This document shows, one piece after another, positions 6,223-56,012 of a DNA stretch of 64,000 nucleotides. Within the stretch, counting starts at the first letter, position 1. Every line of letters starts with the position of its first letter. The DNA comes from Chloroflexota bacterium. GTDB lineage: Bacteria > Chloroflexota > Anaerolineae > UBA2200 > JACIWT01. Made by a program: the position numbers and the translations under genes. The notes beneath the pieces are model-generated. The model was not told where the DNA came from. It made no database searches and was given only the letters and a program-made list of their open reading frames with translations. Location: positions 80,248-144,247 of the forward strand of contig JACIWT010000005.1 of the NCBI GenBank assembly GCA_014360825.1. The letters run 5' to 3'.

Positions 6223-6318
6223 CTTGCAGAAACACCCGGGTTATGAGTTTCTCTAGACAATGGGAAGTACGAGATAGCCAAGGGATGAGAGAGCGTTCGC
6301 TGGTAGTGGAGCCACAAC

Positions 6319-6350
6319 AAAAAGGCCCGCCCCAAGCATGGCGCGGGCCT
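6319..6350 (-). terminator. Rho-independent terminator of the LivK-like gene
   Basis: An 8-base-pair stem (AGGCCCGC 6323-6330 / GCGGGCCT 6343-6350) is followed on the minus strand by TTTTTGTTG. It lies about 20 bases past the stop codon at 6369 and closes the long minus-strand gene series. Confidence 0.85.
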
Positions 6351-6368: not shown

Positions 6369-7505
6369 TCAAGGGGCCGGATACACCTGCACGAAATCGC
6401 CGTTCTCCACCTTGAAAATGTACACGTGCTGCTCGCGCAAATCGCCCTTGCTGTCGTAGGTTATATGTCCCACCAGGGTGTTGAAGTCCAGGCTGCGAAT
6501 GGCATCGGCCACCCGCGCAGCATCGAAGGTCTTTGCGCGCTGGACGCCCTCGGCGATCACCGCCAACGCACTGTATCCGGCAATGCTGTAAGTGCCAGGG
6601 TTGCGCTTCTCCAGAGCCTGATAGTCCTTCCACCATCGAGCGTCGGCAACGACATCGGGGTCTGGGGTGATGCCACTCACATAGACTCCTTCGGCTGCCC
6701 GCCCCGATCCGTCAATGAATTCGTATAGGAAGCAGCCGTCGCTGGCCATGAAAGTCGCCGTCAAGCCAGCCTCACGCAACTCTGGTAGGAGCACGTAGCC
6801 CTCGGTCTCGTATCCGGCCAGGAAGACGGCATCGGGCTGCAGTTGGGCGATCTGTTGCACCGCCTTTACCTGAGTTGGGGCGGCCTCTTCGATCTCGATG
6901 GTCGCTGCCGGTTCGATACCCAGGTTGCGCAGCGCCAACACCATTTGATCCTTCAGCCCACGACCGTACTCGTTGTTGGCGTAGACGAGGGCGATGCGCT
7001 TAGCGCCCAGGGTCTCCACCAGGAAACGAGCATCCACCGGGGCCTGGGCGGCATCGGTGGCGTTCACCCGGAAGAAATTGGTGTAGCCTTTCTGGGTGAT
7101 GGAGACGTCGCTGGCCGTTGGTGTAACAACGATGATGGGCAGGTCTTTGTAGATTTCCATTGCGGCGAGGGTCTGGCCACTATTGTAATGTCCCACTACT
7201 CCGATCACCCTCTCGCCGCGGTCGATGGCTTCCTGCACCTGGCGCGCTACTTCTACCGCCACATCGGAATCGGCCTCATCGTCCAGGGCGATCACCTTGA
7301 CCTCATAGCCCAATAGGCCCCCTGCCTTGTTGAGGTGGTCGGCCATCAGGTTCACGCCCCCGACCACGGTCTGGCCGCCATCTGCTTGCCAGCCCGAGAG
7401 GGGTGCGGCTACGTAGACGATCACTTGCCCTTTGGGCTTTTGCTGACAAGAAGGCATCAGGATCAGCATCAGAACGCTCAGATAAAGGATTGTTCGCTTC
7501 CACAT
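6369..7505 (-). CDS. LivK-like ABC transporter substrate-binding lipoprotein (periplasmic-binding-protein type 1)
   Basis: The 378-residue protein has a lipoprotein signal peptide: a basic start MWKRT, a hydrophobic core, and the lipobox LMPSC with Cys at about 20. The mature part fits the branched-chain amino acid/Leu-Ile-Val binding family: VYVAAPLSG near the start, GGVNLMADHLNKAGGLLGYEVKVIALDDEAD, GVVGHYNSGQTLAAMEIY, and FFRVNATDAAQAPVDARFLVE. It should bind an amino acid or other small solute outside the membrane. No permease or ATPase genes adjoin it, so it may be an orphan receptor or work with a transporter elsewhere. It is the last gene of the minus-strand series, 55 bases after the coiled-coil membrane gene, and has a good terminator. 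Confidence 0.85.
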   Translation of the reverse strand: MWKRTILYLSVLMLILMPSCQQKPKGQVIVYVAAPLSGWQADGGQTVVGGVNLMADHLNKAGGLLGYEVKVIALDDEADSDVAVEVARQVQEAIDRGERVIGVVGHYNSGQTLAAMEIYKDLPIIVVTPTASDVSITQKGYTNFFRVNATDAAQAPVDARFLVETLGAKRIALVYANNEYGRGLKDQMVLALRNLGIEPAATIEIEEAAPTQVKAVQQIAQLQPDAVFLAGYETEGYVLLPELREAGLTATFMASDGCFLYEFIDGSGRAAEGVYVSGITPDPDVVADARWWKDYQALEKRNPGTYSIAGYSALAVIAEGVQRAKTFDAARVADAIRSLDFNTLVGHITYDSKGDLREQHVYIFKVENGDFVQVYPAP

Positions 7506-7560
7506 CGTGTTACTCCCTGAACACTGGCCAAAGGCTCCTATGATGTGCCATTGGCCTTGG

Positions 7561-8406
7561 TCAATTCTCGCCGGAAACTATGATGGGACCAGGGGTCCCG
7601 TGCTGGTATACTTGTTCCATACTGGATACGATATCCTGCAGGGCCTGGATTTGGTCAGCGATGTCCTGGGCCAGACGCCTGCTGCGGGAACTATCAATAT
7701 CTTGCGCCCCCAGGAGCTGCAATTGGGAATAGACCATGCCCAGTGCACTCAAGGATGTTTCCAGTTGGTACTCGGCTCGCTCCATCACGTCTTGCAGTTT
7801 GCGAAGGTTATCTAGTTGTCCTTGCTTGGCTTGGATGGCCTGTTCGATCTGGGCACGCACGGCCGGGTCATTCTCTCGCTGGGCACGGATCCGCAAGGCA
7901 GTGATCTCGCCGGGCAGGTTGCCCAAATCGCGTTGCACCAGCGTGTCGGCCAGGTATTCATCCATCCCCTTGGCGAGTCGGTACATATTGGCGATCCAGT
8001 CGGTCACGCCTGCCGTGGTATCACGCAAATGGTCCCGCAACACGCCTGGTTTGCGTCCCTGCACAAAGGACTCGATACGGGCGCGATACTGCAGGGCTTT
8101 TTCGATTTTTTCCCGGTAGGCAGGTGTGCGGATAGCGGCGGGGTTGAAACGCTGGCGCAACATGTTGGCTACCACCTGCTGGCCAGTTCGCTCGTCGGTC
8201 AGGCTGGTGATGACGATGAGGGATTCGCTCACGCCTCCCAACGCTAGCCAGTACCAGGGTTGCCACCAGGGGAGGGGCTGTGGGAACAGGAAGAACAGCA
8301 CGATGAACGTGGCAATGGTAACCGCGCTCTCCCAGCGGAAGAAAGCATGCTCCAGCATAGCCCGGAAGGTGCGTTGTCTGAGTTCGTCCTGCTTCAGGGT
8401 GCTCAT
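7561..8406 (-). CDS. Coiled-coil membrane protein of unknown function in the VWA operon
   Basis: The protein has 281 residues. After about 28 polar residues come two closely spaced membrane helices (TIATFIVLFFLFPQPLP and WYWLALGGVSESLIVI). A long, strongly helical, heptad-rich cytoplasmic-type region extends from about residue 75 to the end (for example AQIEQAIQAKQGQLDNLRKLQ). I do not recognise a named family. The ATG at 8406 is preceded by CGGAG; the frame is open further upstream, but that region overlaps the VWA gene and reads like its shadow. It lies 41 bases after the solute-binding/VWA gene and is probably co-transcribed. A membrane-plus-coiled-coil protein could be a partner for PspA or the VWA protein, but that is inference only. 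Confidence 0.7.
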   Translation of the reverse strand: MSTLKQDELRQRTFRAMLEHAFFRWESAVTIATFIVLFFLFPQPLPWWQPWYWLALGGVSESLIVITSLTDERTGQQVVANMLRQRFNPAAIRTPAYREKIEKALQYRARIESFVQGRKPGVLRDHLRDTTAGVTDWIANMYRLAKGMDEYLADTLVQRDLGNLPGEITALRIRAQRENDPAVRAQIEQAIQAKQGQLDNLRKLQDVMERAEYQLETSLSALGMVYSQLQLLGAQDIDSSRSRRLAQDIADQIQALQDIVSSMEQVYQHGTPGPIIVSGEN

Positions 8407-8447
8407 GATCACTCCGTTTTTCCTGCTCTGTGTCACCGGAAGATAGC

Positions 8448-10112
8448 CTAGAAGTACGTGGACAGAATCTTGTAAAGTTGGCCGATGGTCTCCGGATCGC
8501 CGCGTCTGGCTTGACCACCAGTGGCTTCGGCGATCTCCTGCAGTGTCGCCATGTCCGCATCGTCGCCATAGGCAATACAGAAGACGACCACGGGGACCCC
8601 GCTCTGGTTTCCCCTCCGCATTTTGTCCACCAACCGGGGGAGCGTCCACCGGGAGTTATTCTCTTTGCCATCGGTCATCACCACGATGGCATTGATGCGC
8701 TCTGAATCGCCAAGCATTTGCAGTTGCGAGTAGGCGAACTCAACCGCATCCAATAGCGCCGTATCACCGCCTGCCTCGAGGGCCTGCACTTGTTCCACCA
8801 AAGCGGCGCGGTTTCTGCGCATCTCATCCAGCAGCAATAGATGCGTGACTTCGGAAGAGAATTTGATCAGGCCCACCCGTTCCTCTGGCCCGCGAATCTG
8901 ATCCAGGAAGACCAAGAGCCCTTCCTTGGCCTGTGCTAACTTCTCGCCCTCCATGCTGCCGGAGACATCTGCCACCAGGTACACGTTGGTCTTGCGCTTG
9001 GTGTAGTACCAAGCATCGCGGACGACCTGCACCACCGCGGGGCTGGGAACCTGCAGCGTGGTTTGAGGCTGTGTGGGGTCCACGCCGTTCGCTGCGGTGA
9101 TAGGAGAAGAAGGATCGTCTAAGGCGATGGTCAGGTCGGTGGGTCGGTAGCCGAAAGATAAGATGCGCATCTGGACATCGTGGGAGAGCAGGAATGAAGA
9201 TAGGACGCGGAAAGCCTGACGCTGACCGATGGTCACCCCCGGCTTTTCGAGCAGGGCCAAGGGGTGGTCTTCCCACATGGTCCCTTCGATCGGGTAAATG
9301 GCCACGAGTTTGTCGCGACTGCGCTGGTTGAAATAGATGACCAGTTGCTCTTGGGCAACGAAGGCGTCCAGGTACTCTCGCCCCCGGCTGAGCACTTGTT
9401 CGATGATGGCCCATTCGCCCTCGCCGTAGTAGCGTACTGTCCGCTCCAGCGCGCCGACGTAGTTCAGTGTGGCTGGGGCTGTAACATCCTCTTCGCTCAG
9501 TCCACGGGTTTTCTCCGCCCCGGCGTAGAATTGGGCTAAGGTGGCCAGAAGGCCGCTCGCTGAGGACGTGCTGGGATGACTCCACCGGAACTGGGGGTCA
9601 CTTTGGGCCCGGGCCAGTATGTCCCCCCATCCCAGCGCTTTGTCGGGATAGCCGAGGGAACGCGCCACATCCTCCCACATGGCGATCACCACTGGGCTGA
9701 CGGCATAGCGAACGGTTTCGCCGACCAGGGGCAATTCGTTACCCTGGGCGTACCAGGCATCGTCCAATTGGCTCAGCCAGATGGAAGAGTCTGGGCTGAC
9801 CACGTCCAACTCACCGCGCAAAGCCTGGCTGAGCATAGTATCTGGGTCGAGCCTGGTAGCCTGAATTCGGATCGGCTTGCCGTCTGGGGTGCGTGGTCTC
9901 GTGCGCTCGAAGTCAGTAACCAGGGTCTCGAAAAGCGCTGCCTTCTCGGGGGTGTAACCCACCCGTAGTGTGACCTCGTTCCCGCTGCTCGGGGTGATCC
10001 GATTGTATAGCAGAAAGCCAGCGGCTACCATCAAAGCGAGCAAGGACACGAAGCCAACGAGAGAAGCAGCGAGGCAACCGCACTCAGATCTTTGCGTTCT
10101 TCGTGGGTTCAC
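8448..10112 (-). CDS. Membrane-anchored solute-binding and VWA domain protein
   Basis: The protein has 554 residues. An N-terminal helix (about 12-36) anchors it. Residues about 46-345 form a family-1-like extracellular solute-binding domain (LRVGYTPEKAALFETLVTDFERTRP near its start; DVVSPDSSIWLSQL; an internal hinge region). Residues about 372-554 form a VWA domain with an intact metal-ion-dependent adhesion site: D-V-S-G-S at 382-386, the threonine in GGDTALLDAV near 451, and D481 in MTDGKEN. The architecture matches proteins annotated as 'substrate-binding and vWA domain-containing'. It should sit outside the membrane and combine ligand sensing with metal-dependent protein binding. The start is GTG with GGAGGGA upstream. 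It lies 10 bases after the paralogous solute-binding gene. Confidence 0.85.
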   Translation of the reverse strand: MNPRRTQRSECGCLAASLVGFVSLLALMVAAGFLLYNRITPSSGNEVTLRVGYTPEKAALFETLVTDFERTRPRTPDGKPIRIQATRLDPDTMLSQALRGELDVVSPDSSIWLSQLDDAWYAQGNELPLVGETVRYAVSPVVIAMWEDVARSLGYPDKALGWGDILARAQSDPQFRWSHPSTSSASGLLATLAQFYAGAEKTRGLSEEDVTAPATLNYVGALERTVRYYGEGEWAIIEQVLSRGREYLDAFVAQEQLVIYFNQRSRDKLVAIYPIEGTMWEDHPLALLEKPGVTIGQRQAFRVLSSFLLSHDVQMRILSFGYRPTDLTIALDDPSSPITAANGVDPTQPQTTLQVPSPAVVQVVRDAWYYTKRKTNVYLVADVSGSMEGEKLAQAKEGLLVFLDQIRGPEERVGLIKFSSEVTHLLLLDEMRRNRAALVEQVQALEAGGDTALLDAVEFAYSQLQMLGDSERINAIVVMTDGKENNSRWTLPRLVDKMRRGNQSGVPVVVFCIAYGDDADMATLQEIAEATGGQARRGDPETIGQLYKILSTYF

Positions 10113-10122
10113 CGGTCCCTCC

Positions 10123-11307
10123 TCAACGCTCGGTCACATTGAGGTCAAACCAGCGCAAGAGCGCCAGCAAGACTTCGCGGTCGGGAGAACGCATCGCTGT
10201 GGTGCGTGGGACTACCGTCATGACCCCTTGACTGCTCCAGCGCTCGAAGAGGCTGTTCTCACCAGTCACCGGCACATCGGGGTTGGCCGGGCGCAGGCCA
10301 CGTTGCACGGCTAATTTCTGGATGTCTGGCTGGAGCAAATAGCGCTCGAACTCCAGCGCCGCATTCTTCTCCAGCGCGGTGGTCTCTTCACCCATCCAGA
10401 TGGTGTAAGGGAAATCGAACCAAGTGATGTACTCGGGATAGATGATGACCAGCGGATCGGCCCAGCGGGTCTGAATACCAGCCATATTGACCAAGAGATC
10501 GCTCTCCAGCAGTTGCCCACCGTCGCCCATCGAGTAGCCAAAGAGAGCCAGGTTTTCTACCGAATAGGCGCTCAGGCTGCTGAAGTCCGTGACGGCGTCC
10601 ATCAGTTCCTTGAGCCACTTTTGGAATTGGGGGTTGGTGATGTCCGCCACGTTGATGCTGGTTTTCTTATAGTATTCTCCCGCCGCTGCCACCATGGCCA
10701 CCAAGCCGCCGACGTTCTTATTGGGATTTGGCACCACCAGTTTGAAATAGCCCCATTCTGGTTTCCCGCCCAACTCTGGCCACCCGCCTTTGGCAGTGGC
10801 CGCGTCGTGAATGACGCTCCAGTTGATATCGCCGAACTTGGCACGGAGCACATCCGCACGACTGGCGTAAATTCCCCAGGCAAAGAGGGAGATGGCTATC
10901 GGGCGAGTACGGTACTCGCCGCCCGTTAGGAAAACATCCCGGCCGCGCTGCTCCTTGAACGTGGCATTGACCAACTCCACCAAGTAGCGGCTATCGGGGA
11001 TCCACACTGTGGGGAATGGCTCCATCTCCCCGCGTTCCCACCGGCTCATAGCGGTCAGACCGTCCATGGGGATCACGGTCACGCGGATGAGATTGCCCTC
11101 CAGTTTGTGTCCTTCGGCGTTGAAGCGGTTGGCTGCTTCCGTGACAAAGGGCTCCACAGGCAGAGCACATACCACTCGGATCTCCAATGTCTGAGGGCCC
11201 TGGATCAAAGGCTCTACTCCGCCCGCACGGCGTAGGTATAGCCCCACGGCGACAACGCCAAGTGCGACTAACAGCACCAGTAAGAAAATAATCCGCGTTC
11301 TATTCAT
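10123..11307 (-). CDS. Membrane-anchored extracellular solute-binding protein, paralogue of the VWA-fused one
   Basis: The protein has 394 residues: a short basic start (MNRTR), one membrane helix (IIFLLVLLVALGVVAVGLYL), and then a solute-binding domain. Similarity in plan to the neighbour's N-terminal half is visible: LEIRVVCALPVEPFVTEAANRFNAEG at the start, FPTVWIPDSRYLVELV (cf. DVVSPDSSIWLSQL), and GKPEWGYFKLVVPNPNKNVGGLVAMVAAAGEYY. There is no VWA domain. The ATG at 11307 was chosen over an in-frame upstream codon at 11361 because AGAGGT lies 9 bases before it and the signal anchor then starts immediately. It lies in the same operon as the VWA gene, with a dedicated promoter at 11441-11470. 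The ligand is unknown, and no ABC permease or ATPase adjoins it. Confidence 0.8.
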   Translation of the reverse strand: MNRTRIIFLLVLLVALGVVAVGLYLRRAGGVEPLIQGPQTLEIRVVCALPVEPFVTEAANRFNAEGHKLEGNLIRVTVIPMDGLTAMSRWERGEMEPFPTVWIPDSRYLVELVNATFKEQRGRDVFLTGGEYRTRPIAISLFAWGIYASRADVLRAKFGDINWSVIHDAATAKGGWPELGGKPEWGYFKLVVPNPNKNVGGLVAMVAAAGEYYKKTSINVADITNPQFQKWLKELMDAVTDFSSLSAYSVENLALFGYSMGDGGQLLESDLLVNMAGIQTRWADPLVIIYPEYITWFDFPYTIWMGEETTALEKNAALEFERYLLQPDIQKLAVQRGLRPANPDVPVTGENSLFERWSSQGVMTVVPRTTAMRSPDREVLLALLRWFDLNVTER

Positions 11308-11440
11308 AATGTGTACCTCTTCATTCGCTCCGGCGGCGGGAAAAGTCACCGAGGTGCGCAATGGGCTGCTCTGGTGAAAGAGCGGGTCAACCAGACCCCT
11401 CGGTAAACGCGCCGAAAGCCAAGCGCCACTTCTCGCGCAG

Positions 11441-11470
11441 ATATTACAACTTGCCCAAGTCCCACGTCAA
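11441..11470 (-). promoter_or_regulatory. Sigma-70 promoter of the solute-binding/VWA operon
   Basis: On the minus strand, TTGACG (11470-11465) and TAATAT (11446-11441) are separated by 18 bases. It sits directly after the stop of the small membrane gene (11478) and leaves a leader of about 125 bases before the ATG at 11307. The downstream block can therefore be expressed separately from pspA. Confidence 0.6.
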
Positions 11471-11477
11471 ATCAGAC

Positions 11478-11699
11478 CTACAGACGTACCTCGCGGTCAC
11501 GCAGGAGGAAATAGGCCAATAAACCGAAAGGCCAGGTGAACCAGGCGATCAGCGCCCACAGGCATCCTGCCTTGCCACGCTTCTCCGAATCAGTGTACAC
11601 CCACAGGGTGCTGCCGATCATGAGCGCAAAAAAGGCGAGCCAGAGCAATCCAAAGCAGCAGAGTCCGAACGTGCCCGTCCAGTCGGGTGAACGATACAT
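11478..11699 (-). CDS. Small two-helix membrane protein (phospholipase D N-terminal-like)
   Basis: The protein has 73 residues with two membrane helices and a charged hairpin between them (YTDSEKRGKAGCLWALIAWFTWPFGLLAYFLLRDRE). The pattern W-V-Y-x-D-x-x-x-R-G...W-x-x-x-x-x-x-x-W-P-x-G-L-x-x-Y-x-x-x-R is that of the PLDc_N/'PLDNc' small membrane family, often encoded beside stress and PspA-like genes. A very clear ribosome binding site GGGAGGA stands ahead of the ATG. It lies 66 bases downstream of pspA and is likely in its operon. The function is unknown. Confidence 0.75.
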   Translation of the reverse strand: MYRSPDWTGTFGLCCFGLLWLAFFALMIGSTLWVYTDSEKRGKAGCLWALIAWFTWPFGLLAYFLLRDREVRL

Positions 11700-11765
11700 G
11701 GTTTCCTCCCAGTTTCAGTGGCGGAGAGCGCCCGCCTATGGGACGCTCTCCGCGGGGTGCAAGCC

Positions 11766-12440
11766 TTACTTGAGGCCCAGGCGTGTCTTGCGCTCGGCCA
11801 ACTGGCGATCGATAGTGTCTTTCTCCAAAGCCTCGGCCATCTGGTTGTCCAGTCGCTTGGCGTCAATTTCGCCCTGCGCGGTGGCCTTGTCCAACCGGCG
11901 CTGGATCTCATCCCGAATTTCCTGGATGCCAGCCTCGCTCACGGTAACACCGCCCACGCCCTCCACGACCTTGTGGGTGAGTTCTTTGGACTTGGCCAAG
12001 TCGAGCATAGCCTGCAATTCGGATCGCTCTTGCTTGGCTTCGGTGAGTTTGGCCTCCAGTTTGAGTTTGGCATCGAGGAGTTTCTGGTATTCGGCCTCGG
12101 TGCTCTGCCACTGCGCCTTGTAGGTGTCGGCCAATCTCTGGATGGTGTTCAGGCGATACTGGGCTGCTGCGGCCAGGTCATCCTTGCCCTGTCGCAGGAA
12201 GAGGTCAATGTTTCCATCCAGATCCTTAGCCTGAGCCTGGAGTTCCTCGTGCTTCCGCTTGAGCGTCTTGGCCTCGCCGCCTACCGTGGCTGCGGCATCC
12301 TCCAAGGCTTCGAGGTTGTCCTCGACCTTGCGGATGTATTCATCCACCACGGCCATGCTGTTGGCGCGCAGCGCCCGGCTGACCAGATAGTTCAGATTGG
12401 CGGAAATCAAGGTTCCGACCCTTTCCAGTAGTGATGACAT
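11766..12440 (-). CDS. pspA: PspA/IM30 (ESCRT-III-like) family protein
   Basis: The 224-residue protein is almost wholly helical and coiled-coil. MSSLLERVGTLISANLNYLVSRA is the amphipathic membrane-binding helix 0/1 that starts PspA/Vipp1 proteins. A long hairpin of charged helices follows (VDEYIRKVEDNLEALEDAAATVGGEAKTLKRKHEEL, interrupted here only by register changes). Family members oligomerise on stressed membranes and protect the proton barrier. The region around 160-175 (VVEGVGGVTVSEAGIQEI) is glycine-rich and less typical. AAGGAGG precedes the ATG. It is transcribed from a probable promoter at 12493-12521. The neighbourhood (small membrane protein, solute-binding/VWA proteins, coiled-coil membrane protein) suggests an envelope-stress module. 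Confidence 0.85.
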   Translation of the reverse strand: MSSLLERVGTLISANLNYLVSRALRANSMAVVDEYIRKVEDNLEALEDAAATVGGEAKTLKRKHEELQAQAKDLDGNIDLFLRQGKDDLAAAAQYRLNTIQRLADTYKAQWQSTEAEYQKLLDAKLKLEAKLTEAKQERSELQAMLDLAKSKELTHKVVEGVGGVTVSEAGIQEIRDEIQRRLDKATAQGEIDAKRLDNQMAEALEKDTIDRQLAERKTRLGLK

Positions 12441-12492
12441 TTCCCGTTCCTCCTTACCTGATAGTGGAGATTAACTCTCCTTTTCACGATTC

Positions 12493-12521
12493 AATATAGC
12501 ACAGATCGCCTTTCGTTTCAC
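12493..12521 (-). promoter_or_regulatory. Probable promoter of pspA
   Basis: On the minus strand, GTGAAA (12521-12516) and TATATT (12498-12493) are separated by 17 bases, with TG one base before the -10 (extended -10 type). It lies 50 bases ahead of the pspA start. The -35 matches 4 of 6 consensus positions. Confidence 0.45.
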
Positions 12522-12603
12522 GACATCCAGCCGACAGATAACCGACAAGTGACCGTCTTCCCCCATTTGCCGGGGGTCGTCATCCTGAATGGAGAGCATT
12601 CCT

Positions 12604-13968
12604 TCATCGGCTGACCAGTTTGTAACCTCGCCCGCGTATCGTGATCAGGTACTTGGGGTTGAGCGGGTCGGGCTCGATCTTCTGACGCAGTCGGCCGATC
12701 AGTTTCTCGATGCGGGCGTCGTCCACTTGGTCAATGTAACTCTCGCCCCACACCGCCTCCACGATGCTGTATTTGTCACAGATTTTGTCCATGTTGCCGT
12801 AGAGCAGGAGCATCAGCCGGAACTCCAATTCAGTGAGCGGGGGCACCAATTCGCCGTCCACATACACATCGCCGGCCTCCACGTCCAAGCGCACCCCGCG
12901 AGGCCTATCGCGGCGGGCCAGTCCTTGCCGCTCCACAAAAGCAGTGAAGAGCGGGGAAAGCGTCTGGTTTTCATTTATCAGGATATGCTTTTCCCGCAGT
13001 GCGGCTTTTGCTTGGGGAGTGGCCTCGCCGGTCCCCATAACCAGCGCCAAGAGGGATAATTGCTCGTCCTCGCTGAGGTCGCTCCACAATTTGGCGCACT
13101 CGGTGCGGACATTGATGTCACCGTGCAGTTTTTCTCGCACGGCCTCGTAGTGGATCTCATCCGTGCCACGGATATGGCGCGCCTCCTCTTTGGCTGCGAT
13201 GGTGGCCTGATAGGTTGCATCCAATAGCCCAGGGTGACCACCTGCCGTGCGGATGATGAACGCGATGTCCTGTTCTTTGAGTTTTGGGTCGGTCGGACGA
13301 GCCCGATCGGCTAAGTACAGGCGAGCGTCGCCCTCACTAAGCGGAGCCAGATAACGGGTGTGGTGAGAGAAGAGTTCGCAGAACTCATCGGTCTCCCGTC
13401 CAGCACGCAATTGGGGGAGCGGGTACGCTGTCGCTGTTACATAGGAAAGGGTCCGGGCGTAGCGATCCTTCAGGGCGCGGAGGTTCAGGAAGATGCGGGC
13501 ATCTAACTGCTGGAAAACGGCATCGAACTCGTCGAAGAGGAACACCACTTGCCGGCCCAATCCTTCGCCCAATGCGAGGAGGCTCTCGTTGAATCGCAGG
13601 GGCACCACGAATTCGCTGCTGGGATTGACCACCTGGGCATGGGCATCGCGGATGCGTTCTACGAGCGATGCGTCGGCGCCGGCACCCTCAAGTGCTCGAG
13701 TGAGGTCGCGCAACACAAGTTCGTAGAACCCCTGCTCGCTCGTGCCCAACATAAAGTTGAGGTCCACATAGGTGAAAATGAACTCTCCTGCAGATTGGCC
13801 CAGGTAGGTGGCTTGCACATCGGGGCGGCACAGGCTGCGTAAGAGCGCCGACTTCCCGATGTTGCTCACTCCCACGATCGAACAGCAATGACCCTCTTGC
13901 ACACAAGACATAATGTAGGCAATGTCATCCTTGCGGGTTACGGATGGGATGGGATGGATGGAGGTCAT
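12604..13968 (-). CDS. STAND-like ATPase with C-terminal OmpR-type winged-helix DNA-binding domain
   Basis: The protein has 454 residues. The N-terminal half is a P-loop ATPase: Walker A GVSNIGKS at 33-40, Walker B VVFLFDEFD near 141-149, then a helical region resembling the MNS/STAND and archaeal-ATPase type (AGGHPGLLDATYQATI). The last 95 residues are an OmpR/PhoB winged helix (LTELEFRLMLLLYGN..., YIDQVDDARIEKLIGRLRQKIEPDP, YLITIRGRGYKLV). There is no receiver domain, so it is not a normal response regulator; ATP binding probably controls DNA binding or oligomerisation. AGGAGG precedes the ATG. It lies 45 bases after the MFS gene and just upstream of pspA, so it may regulate the envelope module. 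Confidence 0.8.
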   Translation of the reverse strand: MTSIHPIPSVTRKDDIAYIMSCVQEGHCCSIVGVSNIGKSALLRSLCRPDVQATYLGQSAGEFIFTYVDLNFMLGTSEQGFYELVLRDLTRALEGAGADASLVERIRDAHAQVVNPSSEFVVPLRFNESLLALGEGLGRQVVFLFDEFDAVFQQLDARIFLNLRALKDRYARTLSYVTATAYPLPQLRAGRETDEFCELFSHHTRYLAPLSEGDARLYLADRARPTDPKLKEQDIAFIIRTAGGHPGLLDATYQATIAAKEEARHIRGTDEIHYEAVREKLHGDINVRTECAKLWSDLSEDEQLSLLALVMGTGEATPQAKAALREKHILINENQTLSPLFTAFVERQGLARRDRPRGVRLDVEAGDVYVDGELVPPLTELEFRLMLLLYGNMDKICDKYSIVEAVWGESYIDQVDDARIEKLIGRLRQKIEPDPLNPKYLITIRGRGYKLVSR

Positions 13969-14013
13969 GTCTTATATCCTCCTACGAGTGATGGCTCCTC
14001 GCACGTCCCTCGT

Positions 14014-15198
14014 TCACGAAATGCCAACGGCGTCCAGACAAAGAGTCTCTCGCGTCCGCCAGGCTACGGGCAATGCCGCCAGCGCGGGCAGGGCGGCCAC
14101 GATGAAAAGCGGCTCTATGCGTCCCATTACGTGATACAACGTCAGCGCCGTCGCAGGTCCGGCGAAGATCACCAAGTCAATGGCCGCGTCGAAGGCTCCT
14201 AATGCCGTTGCCGCGCTCTCCGGTGGGGTGATGTCGGCCATCATCACCGAACTCAGCAGAAAAGTGGCGCTAGCGCCCAGACCAAATAGCGTGTACCAGC
14301 CCACCATCGCGACCAGGCTATTTGACAGAGCCAATCCGACGCAGGATAACATTACCAGCAACTGTGCCAGAATGACAAAGGGCCGTCTTCCCCAGCGGTC
14401 AGAACAGCGACCCACCAGCAGTGAGCCAGCGGTGAAGGCCGTTGCCTCTCCGACCAGGATCAGGCTGATCTGCCACGGCGCGAAGCCCAAGGATTGGGCT
14501 TTGGTGGGCAAGAAGGAGGCCAGGATAGGGAAAGCGAAGTTGTCCACCGCCCCGAACAGGGCGAAAGCATAAACCCGTCGCTGGCGGAAAAGTTCTCCTA
14601 GTTGTTGCCATCGCCCAGTCACACTGGCCACGGGCCCAGCACGGACACTCGCATAAAGTACGAGACAGGCCAAGAAGGAGAGTATGGCATCTATCACGAA
14701 CGGCATGCGTAGCCCGTAGAGCGATAGCCAACCGCCGATAGCCGGAGCCACAATGAACGAAAGCCCCTGGCTGGAGCGCAGCACACCGAAGAAAGTGCCG
14801 TGTCGCCCCGCCGAGATCTCGGCGGTCAGTCCCAGGAGGGCAGGCAAAGCAATGGCATCGGCTACGCCGCCGAGGATGCGCAGTGCCAGCAGTCCCTGCC
14901 ACGAACCGACAACCGCACAGCAGAGTGAGGATAGCCCACCCAGCGCTGCCCCACCCACGAGAACAGTGCGGCGGCCATAGCGGTCGGCCAGCGCCCCGCT
15001 GAAGAACTGGAAGAGCACCAACGTCATCAGCGCTGCCGATAGGGTAGCGGCCATCGCCGCCTGGTCTGCTCCCAGTTGGGCGGAGAGATGGGGCAATACG
15101 GGCACTCCAACCTGAGTGCTCAGAAACAGTATGAAACTGGTGAGAGCAATGGCATAGATCGAGGTCCCTGCCATACGCCCTTGGGATTTGGTCTCCAT
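14014..15198 (-). CDS. MFS transporter, drug/sugar efflux type
   Basis: The protein has 394 residues with about twelve membrane helices. It carries the MFS motif A ADRYGRRTVLVGG after helix 2 and its repeat RCSDRWGRRPFVI after helix 8. Plain MFS exporters with this pattern move drugs or small metabolites by proton exchange; the substrate is not readable. The ATG at 15198 follows AAAGGAT by a very short gap, and ATG at 15174 (MAGTS) is a possible alternative start. It begins 11 bases after the TPR gene, and so is probably co-transcribed with recJ and the TPR gene. Confidence 0.85.
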   Translation of the reverse strand: METKSQGRMAGTSIYAIALTSFILFLSTQVGVPVLPHLSAQLGADQAAMAATLSAALMTLVLFQFFSGALADRYGRRTVLVGGAALGGLSSLCCAVVGSWQGLLALRILGGVADAIALPALLGLTAEISAGRHGTFFGVLRSSQGLSFIVAPAIGGWLSLYGLRMPFVIDAILSFLACLVLYASVRAGPVASVTGRWQQLGELFRQRRVYAFALFGAVDNFAFPILASFLPTKAQSLGFAPWQISLILVGEATAFTAGSLLVGRCSDRWGRRPFVILAQLLVMLSCVGLALSNSLVAMVGWYTLFGLGASATFLLSSVMMADITPPESAATALGAFDAAIDLVIFAGPATALTLYHVMGRIEPLFIVAALPALAALPVAWRTRETLCLDAVGIS

Positions 15199-15209
15199 AT
15201 CCTTTGTTC

Positions 15210-16646
15210 TCAAACACCACTGGTCAGGCGCTTGATGTGCGACCGGACATCGCCCCACACCCGCTGGATAGATTGACTCGTCTGGTCCATCAGTTGGCGA
15301 GGGACAAGTGCCTTGGCTCCCGCCTCACCGCGGGTGGTAGCCTGGAAGCCATACCAACGCCCGCATTGGAAGCAGTGATCCTGGTCTTGTCGGGAGATGA
15401 AGCCACACCCGGCACAGCGGTAAACCGTCTCTTGGGAACGGGCAGAGGCCAGTGCCGTGCGATAGGTGTCCTGTGCCGCCTGGTAATCTTTGGCAGCCTC
15501 GTAGATTGCGCCTAAGCGCTCATGCGCTTCCAGCAGGTCAGGGCTGCGGCGCACGGCCTCCTGTGCTTGGGCTAACACTTCGTCCTGCACTCCCTCTATC
15601 TCGAACAGTTTGCTGAGGGTCAGATTGTAGCGGCCATCATTCGGGTGGCGGCCTGCGGCGTCACGCAGGACCTGGATGACGGTCCACGATTCGCCCAGGT
15701 CAGCGCAGACCGTTAAGAGCCGCTCCTCCAGGGCATACGAAAAGCCCAACCAGATGCCCCTCAACCAAGTCTCGAGCGCCATGCGGGGTTGGTCCTGCTG
15801 GTAATAGGCGTCACCCAGGCGTGTGTAGAGAGAGCAGTCGTGGGGGGAGAACTGCATGGCCAGTTGATAGTCGCTAATAGCCTCGTCGAGGCGGTCGAGT
15901 TGAAAGTGGTCATCGCCATGACGGGAGAAAAGTTCTGACAGCGTCTCCGCGTTTTCCCCGGCCTTGAGGATGCGCAGTTGCTCAATGGCCTCGCGCTCCA
16001 TCTTGAGACGGCGGTAGATGGCGTAGAGATAATAGTGTGTTTCCAGGTTGTTGGGGTCGAGTTCCAAGGCGCGCTGAAAATGGAAGATGGCTGGGGCTGT
16101 CTCTCCGAGTTGGAAAAGGACGGTAGCCAGGCTTACCGTGGCCTGCAGGTTGTCTGGTTCCAGGCGCACTGCCTTCTCGTAATGCGCTTTGGCGGAGCGG
16201 AAGGCGTGGTCGGCTTCGGCAAGCCAACCCAGGCGCAGATGGGCTTGTACATGCAAAGGCTTCAGTTCTTGGTTCCAATCCCAATCCATGGCGGAGGTCA
16301 GAAGCTCGCGCGCTGCCTCGTACTCGCCGCGATCGAAGGCTGCCATGCCCTGGCGAAAATGCTCATCCGCCCGGCGCAGGCGGAAGGTGAGGATATCCGA
16401 AAGGGTGCCGGCGATAAAGCCTTTGAACGTGCTGCGATCGGGTTCCTCGCCAGCCGGCGGCAGGCTGAAGGCCTGGCGCAGACGGGCGCTGGCGATCCGT
16501 GCCCCGCGGGCCAGGCGTCCTGGTGAGGTCCCGATGCTGCGCAGGAAACCGGCAATGGGGCTCCAGGCTCTTCCCACGATGTAGCCGAGGGTGAAGGCCC
16601 CCAATAGGGTGAGCACATCGGCCACAAGATTCAGATTCTCTCGCAT
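15210..16646 (-). CDS. LapB/YciM-like TPR protein with N-terminal helix and C-terminal zinc ribbon
   Basis: The 478-residue protein has three parts: an N-terminal membrane helix (LVADVLTLLGAFTLGYIVG, about 7-26), a chain of tetratricopeptide repeats (about 95-405, for example AHLRLGWLAEADHAFRSAKA and LETHYYLYAIYRRLKMEREA), and a rubredoxin-like zinc ribbon with C411-x2-C414 and C425-x2-C428 (YRCAGCGF...HCFQCGRW). This order is exactly that of LapB/YciM, which in enterobacteria controls LpxC turnover and lipopolysaccharide synthesis. Chloroflexi are generally thought to lack lipopolysaccharide, so the role here must differ, perhaps in recruiting a membrane protease. GGAAAGGA precedes the ATG. 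It lies 18 bases after recJ in one transcription unit. Confidence 0.75.
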   Translation of the reverse strand: MRENLNLVADVLTLLGAFTLGYIVGRAWSPIAGFLRSIGTSPGRLARGARIASARLRQAFSLPPAGEEPDRSTFKGFIAGTLSDILTFRLRRADEHFRQGMAAFDRGEYEAARELLTSAMDWDWNQELKPLHVQAHLRLGWLAEADHAFRSAKAHYEKAVRLEPDNLQATVSLATVLFQLGETAPAIFHFQRALELDPNNLETHYYLYAIYRRLKMEREAIEQLRILKAGENAETLSELFSRHGDDHFQLDRLDEAISDYQLAMQFSPHDCSLYTRLGDAYYQQDQPRMALETWLRGIWLGFSYALEERLLTVCADLGESWTVIQVLRDAAGRHPNDGRYNLTLSKLFEIEGVQDEVLAQAQEAVRRSPDLLEAHERLGAIYEAAKDYQAAQDTYRTALASARSQETVYRCAGCGFISRQDQDHCFQCGRWYGFQATTRGEAGAKALVPRQLMDQTSQSIQRVWGDVRSHIKRLTSGV

Positions 16647-16664
16647 AGAGGTCCTTTCCGGGCT

Positions 16665-18368
16665 CTACTGAGCGGCCCGCATATCTCTCACTACAAGTTC
16701 GATGCGCTGCTCGTTGTTCCACTCGCCGCCCCGCGCCTCGTAAACCACATCTACCCGCGGCGCGAGTTCCGCGGCCCGTTCGCTCTGGCGAAAGGCTATC
16801 GCATCCCACACCACCCGTCCGTCGGTGAGGATGAGTTTGAGGTGCGACTCGCCGACCACTTTCGCTTCGCGCACGGTAACCCCCTCGCTCAGGAAAAGCG
16901 GTCGCGGATTGCCACTGCCAAAGGGCTCCATCTGGTCAATCAGGCGCAGGGTATCCCAATTCAGGTTGGTGAGGGGTATCTGGGCATCAATATCCAATGT
17001 CGGTTGCAAATCCACATCGGCCAGCGCCTCGGCGGCGAGATCTTTCATCCTGGCGGCGAATTCTGGCAGATGACGGCTCTCCAGCGTGAAGCCGGCAGCA
17101 GCCGAATGCCCGCCGTGTCGCAGGAGCAAGTCGGCGCAGCGATCCAAGGCGTGAGTGATATGGAACTCGGGGATGCTGCGCGCCGAGCCCTTGCTGAGTT
17201 CGTCGCCCTGTTCGAGGACCAAGGTGGGGCGATAGAATTGTTCCGTAAGACGCCCGGCTACCAATCCCGCCACGCCCGCTCTGTACTCCCGTCCCGCCAG
17301 GATGAAGATGCGCTCGCTCTCTGGCAAGGCCAACACTTCCTCCGTCGCCCGCTCGATGAGCATCTGCTGCACTTCTTGGCGTTGGCGGTTCACTTCGGTT
17401 AAGGTTGCCGCCAGCGTGGCCGCTTCTTCTGGATCTTCGGTGGTGAGCAGCCGGTAGGCGGCCACCGCATCCTCCATCCGCCCGGCGGCATTGATGCGCG
17501 GGGCCAGAACATAGCCCACGGTCCAGGCATCCACCTGACCTGGCACCAGCGACGCTGCTGCGAGAAGCGCCTTGAGGCCGGGGCGCTGTGAGGCGTTCAG
17601 GCGTTCCAACCCACGGCGCACCAGAGTGCGGTTCTCCCCTACCAGTGGGGCCAAGTCGGCGATGGTGCCCATAGCCACCAGGTCCAGCAAATCCTCCTCG
17701 GATATCTTCCGCCTTGCGCCCGGCAAAGGCACCTGAGAATGGGCGCGCAGGAGGGCCTGGGCGAGTTTGAAGGCCAATCCTACCCCCGCCAGTTGGGAGA
17801 AGGGGTAGCGCACACCGGTCCGTTTGGGGTCCACCACGGCCACCGCAGGCGGCAGTTCAGGGCCCACAGCGTGATGATCCGTGATGATGACTTTCATTCC
17901 CAGACGGTTTGCCAAAGCCACCTCACGCACCGAGCGCACGCCGCAATCCACGGTAACCAGCACTCCGACGCCGCGGTCAGCCAATTCGCGTATCGCTGCG
18001 TCGTTCAGGCCGTAGCCCTCGCGTTCGCGATGGGGGATGTAGGGCTGGACGTTGGCCCCCAGTGCATCGAGGGTCTGGACCAGGAGGGCTGTTGCCGCCA
18101 CGCCATCGGCATCGTAGTCGCCGTAGACAGCAATCGGTGAGCCGGTGCGGATGGCTTGGCGCAGGCAGGTGACGGCCTGGCTCATATCAGGCAGGCGGAA
18201 GGGATTATCGTCTGGAAGCCTTCCGGCGACGAAAGACTGCACATCGTCTGGCTCTACTATCCCCCGGTTGTAAAGGAGTTGGACGATGAGAGGTGACAGG
18301 TCAGGAAAGCGACCGAAATGAGATTCTGGTGCGGGCGGCAAGAACCGCCAGCGATGGGTCTGCTTCAT
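16665..18368 (-). CDS. recJ: Single-stranded-DNA-specific exonuclease RecJ
   Basis: RecJ degrades single-stranded DNA 5' to 3' in recombination and mismatch or base-excision repair. At 567 residues it has standard length. The DHH-phosphoesterase motifs are present: YGDYDADGVAATALL, LVTVDCGVRS, and the diagnostic IITDHHAVG. The DHHA1 part contains GGHSAAAGFTLE (GGHxxAAG motif), and a C-terminal OB-like domain follows. It is the first gene of a long minus-strand series driven by the near-perfect promoter at 18422-18450; GGAGAG lies 10 bases before the ATG. Confidence 0.95.
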   Translation of the reverse strand: MKQTHRWRFLPPAPESHFGRFPDLSPLIVQLLYNRGIVEPDDVQSFVAGRLPDDNPFRLPDMSQAVTCLRQAIRTGSPIAVYGDYDADGVAATALLVQTLDALGANVQPYIPHREREGYGLNDAAIRELADRGVGVLVTVDCGVRSVREVALANRLGMKVIITDHHAVGPELPPAVAVVDPKRTGVRYPFSQLAGVGLAFKLAQALLRAHSQVPLPGARRKISEEDLLDLVAMGTIADLAPLVGENRTLVRRGLERLNASQRPGLKALLAAASLVPGQVDAWTVGYVLAPRINAAGRMEDAVAAYRLLTTEDPEEAATLAATLTEVNRQRQEVQQMLIERATEEVLALPESERIFILAGREYRAGVAGLVAGRLTEQFYRPTLVLEQGDELSKGSARSIPEFHITHALDRCADLLLRHGGHSAAAGFTLESRHLPEFAARMKDLAAEALADVDLQPTLDIDAQIPLTNLNWDTLRLIDQMEPFGSGNPRPLFLSEGVTVREAKVVGESHLKLILTDGRVVWDAIAFRQSERAAELAPRVDVVYEARGGEWNNEQRIELVVRDMRAAQ

Positions 18369-51999: not shown

Positions 52000-54434
52000 G
52001 GGACTTGCTGTCGGTCGCGAGTTGGTGGCTGGCATTTGAGGCGCTGGGGTTGGGGGCCCTACCCATCACCCTGCGCCTTTTCCGACCATTGCCTGAGCGG
52101 GGCTATGGCCTCTCGAAATTGCTGGGGCTGTTGCTGACCGGATACATCATCTGGATCGGCGGCAGTTTCGGCTTCCTGCGGTTGACGCGGGCCACGATCT
52201 TGACGGTGATCATCCTGGCGGCGCTCTATTGTCTGCGGCACACTGCTGAGGTCGTCGCCTTCCTTCGCCAGAACGTCCGCCTGGTCATCGTCACCGAACT
52301 GGTGTTCACTGTCTCCTTCCTGGCCTGGGTCCTCTACCGGGCCTATAATCCCGACATCGCCGCCACCGAAAAGCCCATGGAGTTCGCTTTTCTGAACGCC
52401 ATCGTGCGCGCAGGAACCGTGCCGCCACCTGACCCCTGGCTTTCGGGCTTCGCCATCAGTTACTACTATTTCGGCTATTTCCTGATGGCCCTACTGACCG
52501 TCCTGGCCGGGGTGAGGACTGCTGTGGCCTTCAATCTCATCGTGGCCACGCTCTTCGCCGCCACCATGAGCGGGGCGTTCAGCCTGGTGACGAACCTGGT
52601 GGCCTCATACCACGGCGGGATGAAACGCGCGCTGGCCTGGGGATTGGTGGGGGCTCTCCTGGTAACCGAGATCGGCAACGTGGAGGGTCTGTTGGAGGTG
52701 CTGCACGCCAGGGGGCTCGGCTCGCTTTCCTTCTGGCAGTGGGTGGACGTGAAGGGCCTGGCCGATGCGCCCGTGACCGGCGCGTGGTTTCCATCTGACG
52801 GTTGGTGGTGGTGGCGGGCCTCGCGGGTGATCCACGACCGGGATCTACTGGGGCGTTCGATGGAGGTCATTGACGAGTTCCCCCTGTTCAGTTTCGTCCT
52901 GGGCGACGTGCATCCCCACGTGCTGGCACTACCCTTCGTCTTGCTGGCATTGGCGCTGGGGTTCAGTACCCTGCTGAATGCAATGCAAGAGGCACCGGCG
53001 GACGCCACCGGCGTCCGTGCTCATATGGAGTCTCTTGTCCGACGTCAACTGGGCGATTTGCTGCTGGCCTGTCTCATCCTCGGCGGCCTGGGCTTCCTGA
53101 ACACCTGGGACTTCCCCGTCTATCTGTTGATCGTCGTAGCCTGCCACACCCTGGGACGGTTCTGGCGAGAAGGTCGGTGGCCCTGGGATGAAGCACTGGG
53201 TTTCGCGCTCCTCCTGGGGGTTGGTGGGGTCCTGCTATACCTACCCTTCTACATCGGCTTCCGCTCCCAGGCGGGGGGACTACTGCCCAATCTCATCAAT
53301 GGCACGCGGCTACACCAATACCTGATCATGTTCGGCCTTCTCATCTTCACCGCGGCGGGCTTTTTGTTGGTGCAGTTGGCTCACTTGGGGGTGCGAGTTG
53401 GGGTGCGGAAAGTGCTCCAACAAGTACTATGGTACCTTGTTATCTGTATCGGGGGGCCTGGGATGCTCCTCGGGGGGTTGGCGGCGGGGCTGGTTTTCAC
53501 TCCGCTGGGGCGCTCTTTGCTGCAGGAGGAAGTCGTGCGAGAGCAACTGGCCGGACGAGGGCTGGGTGAAGTGGCCCGCCAGGTTCTGGCCATGCGCCTG
53601 GGGGACCCCTGGCTGGCGCTATTTCTGGCCCTCGGCATCGCAGTGGGGATAACGTTGCTCGCCCGAAGCCGGGAGACGGGCGAGACTGGGACACCCCACG
53701 CCGCCGTTCTCTTCTGTGTTCTCCTGGTGGTCGTGGCGCTGCTTCTGTCGCTTGGAGTGGAGTTCGTTTACCTGCGGGACGCCTTCGGCACGCGGATGAA
53801 CACAGTGTTCAAGTTCTACTATCAGGCCTGGGTGCTGCTGGCAGTGGCGGCACCGGTGACTTTGGGTTATACGCTCGAGCACCTCCGGACAGGGGCACGA
53901 TTGGCATGGGGATTGTGCTGGGGAGTGCTGCTCGTCGCCCAGTTGGTTTATCCCCTGGGCGCGATCTGGGCCAAGGCGGGCGGCTTCGCCGGGAAACCGA
54001 CGCTGGATGGCACCGCCTTCTACCAGCAACTCCGCCCTGACGATTACGCCGCTGTGGAATGGTTGAACCGCAACGTCCGTGGCACCGTCTATATTGTAGA
54101 GGCGAACGGCCCCTCCTACAGCCCTGAGTTGCACAACATGGTCTCGGCGTTCACCGGGCTGCCCACGGTGTTGGGTTGGGGTTTCCACGAGTTGCAGTGG
54201 CGGGGCAACTACGCGGAACCAGGCCGCCGCGAGCCCGACATCGTTAGAATCTACCAGTCGGGCGACCCGAACGAGGTTTTGACGCTGCTGGACAAGTATG
54301 CGATAATGTACGTGTACGTGGGGGACCTGGAGCGCAGCAAGTTCGGCCTCTCGCCGGAGATGGCAGCGCGCTTCGGCCTGTTTATGGATCGGGTCTATTC
54401 TGGCGGGGGTGTGGCGATTTATCGGGTGCGGTGA
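51996..54434 (+). CDS. Stand-alone DUF2298 membrane protein
   Basis: The 812-residue protein corresponds to the C-terminal half of the two giant fusions but lacks the GT39-like half. Diagnostic blocks: YNPDIAATEKPMEFAFLNAIVRAG (in two pieces), PPPDPWLSGFAISYYYFGYFLMALLT, VIDEFPLFSFVLGDVHPHVLALP and TRMNTVFKFYYQAWVLLAVA. About fifteen to eighteen helices. This is the ancestral-looking single-domain form. Its ATG overlaps the stop of copy 2 (ATGA, 51996-51999), giving four co-translated genes in a row. An AT-richer island follows its stop. Confidence 0.88.
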   Translation: MRDLLSVASWWLAFEALGLGALPITLRLFRPLPERGYGLSKLLGLLLTGYIIWIGGSFGFLRLTRATILTVIILAALYCLRHTAEVVAFLRQNVRLVIVTELVFTVSFLAWVLYRAYNPDIAATEKPMEFAFLNAIVRAGTVPPPDPWLSGFAISYYYFGYFLMALLTVLAGVRTAVAFNLIVATLFAATMSGAFSLVTNLVASYHGGMKRALAWGLVGALLVTEIGNVEGLLEVLHARGLGSLSFWQWVDVKGLADAPVTGAWFPSDGWWWWRASRVIHDRDLLGRSMEVIDEFPLFSFVLGDVHPHVLALPFVLLALALGFSTLLNAMQEAPADATGVRAHMESLVRRQLGDLLLACLILGGLGFLNTWDFPVYLLIVVACHTLGRFWREGRWPWDEALGFALLLGVGGVLLYLPFYIGFRSQAGGLLPNLINGTRLHQYLIMFGLLIFTAAGFLLVQLAHLGVRVGVRKVLQQVLWYLVICIGGPGMLLGGLAAGLVFTPLGRSLLQEEVVREQLAGRGLGEVARQVLAMRLGDPWLALFLALGIAVGITLLARSRETGETGTPHAAVLFCVLLVVVALLLSLGVEFVYLRDAFGTRMNTVFKFYYQAWVLLAVAAPVTLGYTLEHLRTGARLAWGLCWGVLLVAQLVYPLGAIWAKAGGFAGKPTLDGTAFYQQLRPDDYAAVEWLNRNVRGTVYIVEANGPSYSPELHNMVSAFTGLPTVLGWGFHELQWRGNYAEPGRREPDIVRIYQSGDPNEVLTLLDKYAIMYVYVGDLERSKFGLSPEMAARFGLFMDRVYSGGGVAIYRVR

Positions 54435-54493
54435 GAGGAAGATAAGCGAGATGCCGCCTGATCTAAAATGTATGGTGTATAGGAGGAGCCAGT

Positions 54494-54736
54494 ATGTTGA
54501 CATCCTATATTCGAGCGGCGATGCGGAGGGCTAAGTACGAAATCCTTCCCGATGACGGCACTTTCTACGGAGAGATCCCAGGCTTCGATGGCGTATACGG
54601 TAACGCCGAGACCCTTGAAGCCTGCCGTGATGAACTAGAGGAAGTTTTAGAGGAATGGATTCTGTTCCGCGTTTCTCGGAATCTCCCTCTGCCGGTCGTT
54701 GACGGCATTGAGAAGATGAACCTAGTTTGGGGGTAA
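54494..54736 (+). CDS. HicB-like antitoxin-type protein without a HicA partner
   Basis: The 80-residue protein has the HicB/UPF0150 fold: a strand with P-D-D-G-T-F-Y-G-E-I-P-G-F-D-G-V, then N-A-E-T-L-E-A-C-R-D-E-L-E-E-V-L-E-E-W. There is no DNA-binding C-terminal extension and no HicA toxin gene on either side. AGGAGG precedes the ATG. It is the first gene of the AT-richer island and may be a leftover of a toxin-antitoxin pair or a stand-alone member. Confidence 0.8.
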   Translation: MLTSYIRAAMRRAKYEILPDDGTFYGEIPGFDGVYGNAETLEACRDELEEVLEEWILFRVSRNLPLPVVDGIEKMNLVWG

Positions 54737-54742
54737 GCGGAA

Positions 54743-55054
54743 TTGTCTTACAATCCCGTGTATAGTGCAAGGCCATTTACAGACTTCGCCTCTGTTAGAC
54801 CTGAAACACCTCTTGAGTCCCTCAACCTGAACTGGCGGGAACAAGATCTACCGGAGCGGGAAAGGACAAAACATGTCCACCGCCTCCACCCGTACCTTGG
54901 GAAGTTTATTCCCCAGTTGGCTGAGATCTTCCTGCCTAAGTTTAATCCAAAGTCAGTGTGTGATCCGTTCTGTGGCTCCGGCATTACGCTAGTAGAGGCC
55001 ACGGTTTTGGGCATTGATTCGGTAGGCTGCGATAATGAGGAGGTGATTGTGTAG
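54743..55054 (+). pseudogene. Truncated N4/N6-type DNA methyltransferase, N-terminal fragment
   Basis: The encoded protein is 103 residues. HPYLGKFIPQLAEIFLPKF and the SAM-binding motif DPFCGSGITLVEA (about 74-86) are those of DNA N4-cytosine/N6-adenine methyltransferases, ending with IDSVGCDNEEVIV and a stop. The catalytic [DNS]PP[YF] motif and the rest of the enzyme (normally another 150-250 residues) are absent and not found downstream. Either the gene lost its 3' part or it is one half of a split enzyme. It starts at TTG 54743, seven bases after the HicB-like gene; the ATG of the EVE gene follows its stop with no gap. Confidence 0.75.
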
Positions 55055-55921
55055 ATGAGAAACTTTTGGATTGTAACGGGATCGGAAACAAATTGGAGAC
55101 AAGCACTTATCTCCAGAGGGATCTGGGGACTTGAAGAGAGTAAACTTGACAAGGTTTATTGGCTAGCGATTGCACCCAATGATGTGATACTGTTCTATGT
55201 AAGTGGCAAAGTGAAGGGGATAGTTGGATATGGAATCGTCAGACGCAAGTTCTACCAAGATGTCCCTTTGTGGAATGCTGAGATAGAAGAAGGGCGTGTA
55301 AAGTGGCCTCTTAGGTTTGAATTCGACGTAGAGTTTCTTTTACCTGAAAACAGGTGGAAGGATAAAAAGATATCAGTACCTCGGGGAGGGGAATTCAGGC
55401 AACCGTTAATCCTCAAAGAAGGGGAAGAGGTAGAACCAATCATTCAGGCATTAAATCCCAACGTCTCTATGGAATTGCTGCGAGAAATTTCCATACTCCC
55501 TCCGCCCGTGAAAGTAGATTTTCTCTCCCCAACACACGAGAATATTAAAAACTTGTTGCTGGAAATTGGAAAATTGCAAGGCTATGTCGCAGATCTTGAA
55601 TTTCCGATGGGCACAGAGTGGTTAGATGTAACATGGAGGAGACTCCCAGAGTCTGTTCCAACATATGCTTTTGAAGTTCAAGTAGGCGGTGACCTGTATC
55701 ACGCAATGGGAAAATTAAAACATGCTTACGACATATGGAACAGCCGGATTTTCCTGGTAGCATCAGCCGATGCTTTGGGTGCTGTCAATAAATTGCTTTC
55801 GGGGACATTCCATGAAATACAACCCGTACTCAGATTCATTGAGGTAGGAAAGATTCAGAGTCTGTATCAATCTAAGCAGAATATTCATCAAATTGAGAAG
55901 GATTTAGGGTTAATCCCGTGA
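55055..55921 (+). CDS. EVE-domain protein with nuclease-like C-terminal domain
   Basis: The protein has 288 residues. Residues 1-140 are an EVE (PUA-like) domain: FWIVTGSETNWRQALISRGIWGLEE, NDVILFYVSGKVKGIVGYGIV, then KFYQDVPLW. EVE domains bind modified bases. Residues about 160-288 resemble a PD-(D/E)xK-type nuclease: HENIKNLLLEIGKLQGYVA, D191 in TEWLDVTW, and E207-V-Q209 in YAFEVQVGGDLYHAMGKLKHAYD. Together this would be a modification-dependent (type IV) restriction enzyme, but the catalytic lysine is Q, so activity is uncertain. Base use is clearly AT-richer than in flanking genes. Its ribosome binding site GAGGAGGTGA lies inside the methyltransferase fragment. Confidence 0.72.
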   Translation: MRNFWIVTGSETNWRQALISRGIWGLEESKLDKVYWLAIAPNDVILFYVSGKVKGIVGYGIVRRKFYQDVPLWNAEIEEGRVKWPLRFEFDVEFLLPENRWKDKKISVPRGGEFRQPLILKEGEEVEPIIQALNPNVSMELLREISILPPPVKVDFLSPTHENIKNLLLEIGKLQGYVADLEFPMGTEWLDVTWRRLPESVPTYAFEVQVGGDLYHAMGKLKHAYDIWNSRIFLVASADALGAVNKLLSGTFHEIQPVLRFIEVGKIQSLYQSKQNIHQIEKDLGLIP

Positions 55922-56012
55922 AGATAGGATTAATCTAATAGTTTGGTAGTGTTAAAGCGCGGGATTTACAGGCTCTGAAGTTTGATAAGATCTTTAGGAG
56001 TTGAGCAATCCG

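Follow-up and report, generated by a model that had tools for sequence, protein, structure and literature searches.

PSP systems, of which pspABC-PspF, liaIHGFSR and the ydjFGHI operon of B. subtilis are described examples (surveys PMC11237479 and PMC9239133), place PspA beside membrane partners, a dedicated regulator and envelope-stress genes. Beyond a few model phyla these systems are poorly understood, and how PspA learns of damage is an open question. The locus analyzed here lies in a 64,000-nucleotide window from a Chloroflexota bacterium (contig JACIWT010000005.1, positions 80,248 to 144,247) and shows the same kind of arrangement. We consider it a probable PSP-type envelope-stress operon of Chloroflexota, in which a regulator (AAAreg) would act as the switch, PspA and a coiled-coil membrane protein (CC) would carry out repair, and two solute-binding proteins, one of them fused to a VWA domain (SBP and SBP-VWA), would form an extracytoplasmic arm together with a LivK-like lipoprotein (LivK).

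A preliminary description of the window had placed genes for SBP, SBP-VWA, the coiled-coil protein, the LivK-like lipoprotein, a small two-helix protein and PspA on one strand, and all six reading frames were confirmed in place on the minus strand (6369-12440). Read 5' to 3' on that strand, the order across 6369-13968 is AAAreg, pspA, the gene for the small 73-aa protein, SBP, SBP-VWA, CC and LivK, with intergenic gaps of 10-170 bp from pspA through LivK (Table 1). AAAreg, just upstream of pspA, belongs to the operon's unit, and the operator and promoter together occupy 12493-12547. The SBP gene probably starts at 11307, where there is a ribosome-binding site and an ATG, and not at 11361; for CC, the start moves from 8649 to about 8406. 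Beyond the terminator lies pfkB, which has its own promoter-like sequence. An internal promoter is also possible, as a scan found a consensus promoter-like site in the gap that separates the 73-aa gene from SBP. Upstream of the operon, the order RecJ-TPR-MFS-AAAreg (12604-18368) is kept in close relatives (L033, L034). Elsewhere in the window, the GC content drops locally to 0.49 at 54001-56000, compared with about 0.59 around it.

Table 1. Features of the operon, in window coordinates
Feature	Position	Strand	Basis
AAAreg, AAA ATPase with C-terminal OmpR/PhoB-type winged helix; predicted operon regulator	12604..13968	-	Trans_reg_C 60.3 bits
Operator, three TGTCGG/TGTCG direct repeats at 11-bp spacing	12519..12547	-	sequence pattern
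Extended -10 (TGCTATATT), hexamer 20 nt past operator	12493..12501	-	fixed position among triple sites
PspA, ESCRT-III-like membrane-repair protein, 224 aa	11766..12440	-	PF04012 2.8e-18
73-aa two-helix membrane protein, lineage-specific passenger	11478..11699	-	no family; one related gene
SBP, membrane-anchored, one N-terminal helix	10123..11307	-	weak SBP_bac_11/SBP_bac_8; hydrophobic helix 1-29
SBP-VWA, membrane-anchored fusion, intact MIDAS	8448..10112	-	Pfam; MIDAS alignment; AlphaFold/Foldseek
CC, two-helix membrane hairpin and helical bundle	7561..8406	-	no family; AlphaFold pLDDT 87.6
LivK/Peripla_BP_6 lipoprotein without transporter	6369..7505	-	PF13458 184 bits; lipobox Cys20
Terminator-like GC hairpin and T run (intrinsic), 3' of LivK, closing the operon	about 6317-6349	-	scan and sequence

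Synteny was counted at loci with at least 4.5 kb of DNA upstream of CC, 57 in the named set and 28 among relatives, the two sets overlapping. pspA stands upstream of CC on the same strand at 53/57 and 27/28 of these loci, respectively, while SBP-VWA is found upstream of CC at 32/57 and 24/28. In the named set, AAAreg precedes pspA within 9 kb of CC at 33 of the 57 loci, and the two layouts seen most often are pspA-SBP-SBP-VWA-CC-LivK, at 24 loci, and the pspA-CC dyad alone, at 23. With about 40% of loci being dyads, the SBP/VWA part is optional; the layout counts thus make pspA-CC the core, with CC and PspA as the minimal dyad and SBP, SBP-VWA and LivK as an extracytoplasmic add-on. CC is present in 36/60 relatives and in 165/298 genomes of the class; where the SBP match was strong (at least 339 bits), 95 of 108 genomes have CC, as against 70 of the 190 others. 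In the named collection, 208 relatives were found, and nearly all of the 80 listed titles are Chloroflexota/Anaerolineae MAGs, with one labelled Bacteroidetes. The whole order is kept in other Chloroflexota classes (L225, L226).

The neighborhood check proposed in the preliminary description found a cluster that recurs in dozens of species and not in this genome only. Its suggestion that the six genes form one system held up for the conserved set, but not for the small two-helix protein: a single similar gene was found (L098), and we rejected the 73-aa protein as a core member. The unity of the system is further weakened by the optional SBP/VWA part and by SBP-SBP-VWA sets that occur without PspA, either together with CC (L227, L228) or with LivK and without both CC and PspA (L209, L210, L212). 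The function of SBP/VWA pairs may therefore be distinct from that of PspA. At L214:5832-10445 lies a parallel module that also lacks PspA, in which SBP and SBP-VWA are joined by an uncharacterized 261-aa gene, another SBP and a different type of coiled-coil protein. Five loci (L054, L121, L122, L124, L150) have two tandem pspA-like genes ahead of the SBP genes.

The PspA of the window matches PF04012 (PspA_IM30) at 66.8 bits, against a cut-off of 33.9, and is the only PspA in the genome. Pfam matching of the operon genes found none of PspB, PspC, PspF, LiaI, LiaF or Toastrack, and neither CC nor the 73-aa protein matched a family in Pfam or NCBIfam. Gene linkage places CC, a membrane protein, beside pspA at the 53 loci counted above, and CC appears to be an undescribed family and a candidate PspA partner. 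Its AlphaFold model, a membrane hairpin followed by a helical bundle, matched nothing in the PDB at an E value of 0.001 or below and gave only weak hits to helical bundles. The possibility that CC is a PspA/ESCRT-III paralogue was ruled out by profile comparison (probability 0.3%), and no sequence similarity between CC and PspA was found. The Arg/Lys-rich N-terminus of CC suggests that the bundle is cytoplasmic.

SBP-VWA contains a VWA domain (67.3 bits) and an SBP_bac_11 domain (46.1 bits); the stand-alone SBP scores 21.0 bits for SBP_bac_11, below the Pfam cut-off of 25. The metal site reported earlier as intact (DVSGS 382-386) is borne out by the alignment, in which 49/49 aligned homologues share the MIDAS residues D382, S384, S386, T451 and D481, giving the complete DxSxS...T...D metal site of a MIDAS-type VWA adhesion/binding domain. 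Mean column identity across 23 species is about 60% for SBP and 56% for SBP-VWA. The AlphaFold model of SBP-VWA (pLDDT 86.5) shows a type II SBP followed by the VWA domain, and its Foldseek matches are type II SBPs and VWA domains, the top match being 6lkg, a protein with an SBP fold whose annotation describes a mediator of two-component signal transduction. The assignment of LivK as a LivK-like lipoprotein was likewise upheld (Peripla_BP_6, 184 bits), with an invariant lipobox Cys20 and amino-acid-binding SBPs such as 3ip5 as its nearest solved relatives. In another Chloroflexota class, an SBP-like (NMT1) protein fused to an OmpA-like domain, which is itself below the Pfam cut-off, adjoins SBP-VWA and two CC-like genes (L223:315-7097).

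Upstream of pspA, triple GTCR repeats were found in 26/84 sequences (0.00 expected from shuffles) and double repeats in 42 of 84 (2.35 expected), while no triple repeats were found upstream of SBP, SBP-VWA, CC, LivK or AAAreg. A -10 element (T-A-N3-T) occurs at one fixed position in 28/41 distinct triple sites, with any other position reaching at most 6, and lies within one base of the fixed position in 35-38 of the 41, depending on scoring. The consensus of the triple sites is GTCAGn6GTCrGn6GTCATGC followed by TGnTAnnAT, which has the 11-bp tandem repeats and fixed distance to the -10 of an OmpR/PhoB-type promoter. Across the 60 relatives, the strict operator pattern gave 22 sites versus 5 for the reversed control, and 13 of the 22 precede pspA. 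A chance origin of the operator was ruled out by the shuffles, the upstream regions of the other genes, the reversed-pattern control and the fixed -10 spacing. In the window genome, the sole perfect operator match is the pspA site.

In relatives, further operator sites precede other envelope genes: an NfeD-like/Band_7 (flotillin) pair, DUF4870, AIM24 and a Mur ligase. The operator is common to pspA and envelope genes, and the operator-bearing genes probably form an envelope-stress regulon; the tie to envelope stress and membrane repair proposed in the preliminary description is strengthened by this shared operator. The NfeD-like gene matched no Pfam family; its name rests on resemblance and on its Band_7 neighbor. 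The same -10 spacing was seen with the operator at L242, L245, L253, L255 and L256, the sites of the NfeD-like/Band_7 pair, DUF4870, the Mur ligase, AIM24 and an uncharacterized membrane protein. The window genome has a second site of five 11-bp repeats, with one mismatch and a -10, ahead of an ICMT-MacB operon (L230:1470-1580; G000:C4:47425-47461), and these genes for an ICMT/PEMT-type methyltransferase and a MacB-like exporter are likely regulon members. Two matches look like chance, one without a -10 (L238) and one inside a gene (L243), and at L239 and L258 the contigs end before the downstream genes. Relatives also carry signaling and PSP-partner genes around the core: ahead of pspA, a histidine kinase rich in GAF domains and a hybrid of receiver and kinase; between pspA and CC, a gene for either a Ser/Thr kinase or a TPR protein; and behind CC, NfeD together with Band_7.

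AAAreg has Walker A (GxSNxGKS) and Walker B (FLFDEFD) motifs, although its AAA_16 score of 26.4 bits is below the cut-off for that family. Among the 60 relatives, the operator is present in 15/28 genomes with an AAAreg orthologue versus 1/32 without (p about 1e-5), and at locus level in 30/41 versus 12/43, with the Fisher p-values weakened by the relatedness of the genomes, which are not fully independent. This co-occurrence suggests that AAAreg is an activator that binds the 11-bp repeats. One operator-positive genome (G019) had no detected AAAreg orthologue, so another OmpR-type protein might bind the operator. Together with the likeness of the repeats to pho boxes, and with the other OmpR-type regulators encoded in the genome, this genome could speak for an operator that serves a phosphate-type PhoB response regulator, placing the operon in a phosphate or general two-component regulon and not under AAAreg. 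We regard that as unlikely, given that the operator tracks the AAAreg orthologue, that AAAreg adjoins pspA and that the operator sites precede envelope genes, not phosphate genes. The solute-binding proteins could also feed ABC permeases encoded elsewhere and adjoin pspA by chance, and the genome does have at least three Peripla_BP_6/BPD_transp_2 transporter sets. These sets, however, have their own SBP genes beside the permeases: of five Peripla_BP_6 genes in the genome, three stand beside BPD_transp_2 permeases, one is part of a 1140-aa frame, and the one in the window lacks a permease. The earlier observation that the operon lacks an ABC partner was confirmed, as neither a permease nor an ATPase of an ABC uptake system was found in it. 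When 117 CC loci were scanned with a crude motif for ABC ATPases, only five candidates emerged and none was linked to SBP genes; the one closest to CC is about 1 kb away, at a dyad locus that has no SBPs. Two of the solute-binding proteins have uncleaved anchors, one of them bearing a VWA domain, and the gene arrangement is kept across classes, all of which makes uptake through distant permeases very improbable. Genes following LivK at L094 and L108, whose sizes hinted at an ABC set, were identified as clostripain-type peptidase and PfkB-type kinase families and set aside. The Peripla_BP_6 domain in the 1140-aa open frame (G000:C7:6847-7866) is perhaps part of a sensor protein.

In the envelope-stress operon that we favor, membrane or wall stress would lead AAAreg to bind the 11-bp repeats and turn on the operon, and PspA would coat the inner face of the membrane. 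CC, with its hairpin in the membrane and its bundle presumably in the cytoplasm, may anchor or control PspA in the way that PspC or SPFH proteins do in other systems. LivK and the two anchored SBP proteins would make up the extracytoplasmic arm, with the VWA metal site kept to bind a partner, perhaps the neighboring SBP, a wall polymer or a surface protein; an outside ligand or damage status could thereby tune PspA inside via VWA partner binding. A specific version, in which SBP-VWA and LivK read an outside ligand and signal through the CC hairpin to PspA, with AAAreg (possibly restrained by PspA, like PspF) setting the envelope regulon, is tentative and, in our judgment, rather doubtful. SBP, SBP-VWA and LivK are encoded within the operon, behind the stress operator, and have no operator of their own; they could therefore equally be induced effectors that hold a wall polymer, a surface protein or a toxic small molecule at the membrane surface via the VWA metal site while PspA and CC repair the inner face. 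The optional nature of the SBP/VWA module around a pspA-CC core and the SBP-OmpA-like fusion at L223 point the same way, and we give this effector role a reasonable chance, if short of even. Against it, the presence of three ligand-binding folds whose residues are highly conserved points to ligand recognition, and location in the operon is by itself no bar to sensing, since PspB/PspC and the Lia sensors are likewise encoded within the operons to which they belong. Both the sensor and the induced-effector readings of the arm fit. The class-wide Chloroflexota system offers a predicted regulator with a defined operator, a short regulon open to testing and a new family of candidate PspA partners, along with a possible role for transporter-less SBP-VWA proteins and a route to ask if an extracellular ligand tunes the PSP response.

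The promoter resembles PhoB/OmpR promoters in its CTGTCA-like repeats with 11-bp spacing upstream of the -10 and in the OmpR-type winged helix of the nearby regulator; it differs in that the AAAreg winged helix is fused to an AAA ATPase, not to a receiver domain, and in having 20 bp between the end of the last repeat and the -10. HptA of HptARS is a solute-binding protein used as a sensor. The operon shares with HptA/HptARS an SBP without a permease, but has no periplasm-facing histidine kinase and has VWA fused to one SBP. Literature searches found no VWA-PspA link; searches of the main texts of PMC11237479 and PMC9239133 revealed neither a VWA protein nor this arrangement, and the only mentions of solute binding that turned up in PMC11237479 concern another operon type. 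The likeness to PSP systems extends, in some Chloroflexota relatives, to two-component and Band_7/NfeD partners. In contrast to those systems, the Chloroflexota operon lacks a sigma-54 PspF, PspB/PspC, LiaF and Toastrack, and has instead a new 2TM coiled-coil partner, SBP, SBP-VWA, LivK and an AAA-OmpR regulator. It belongs with the PSP systems by its PspA and probably works like them, without their classical partners or regulator.
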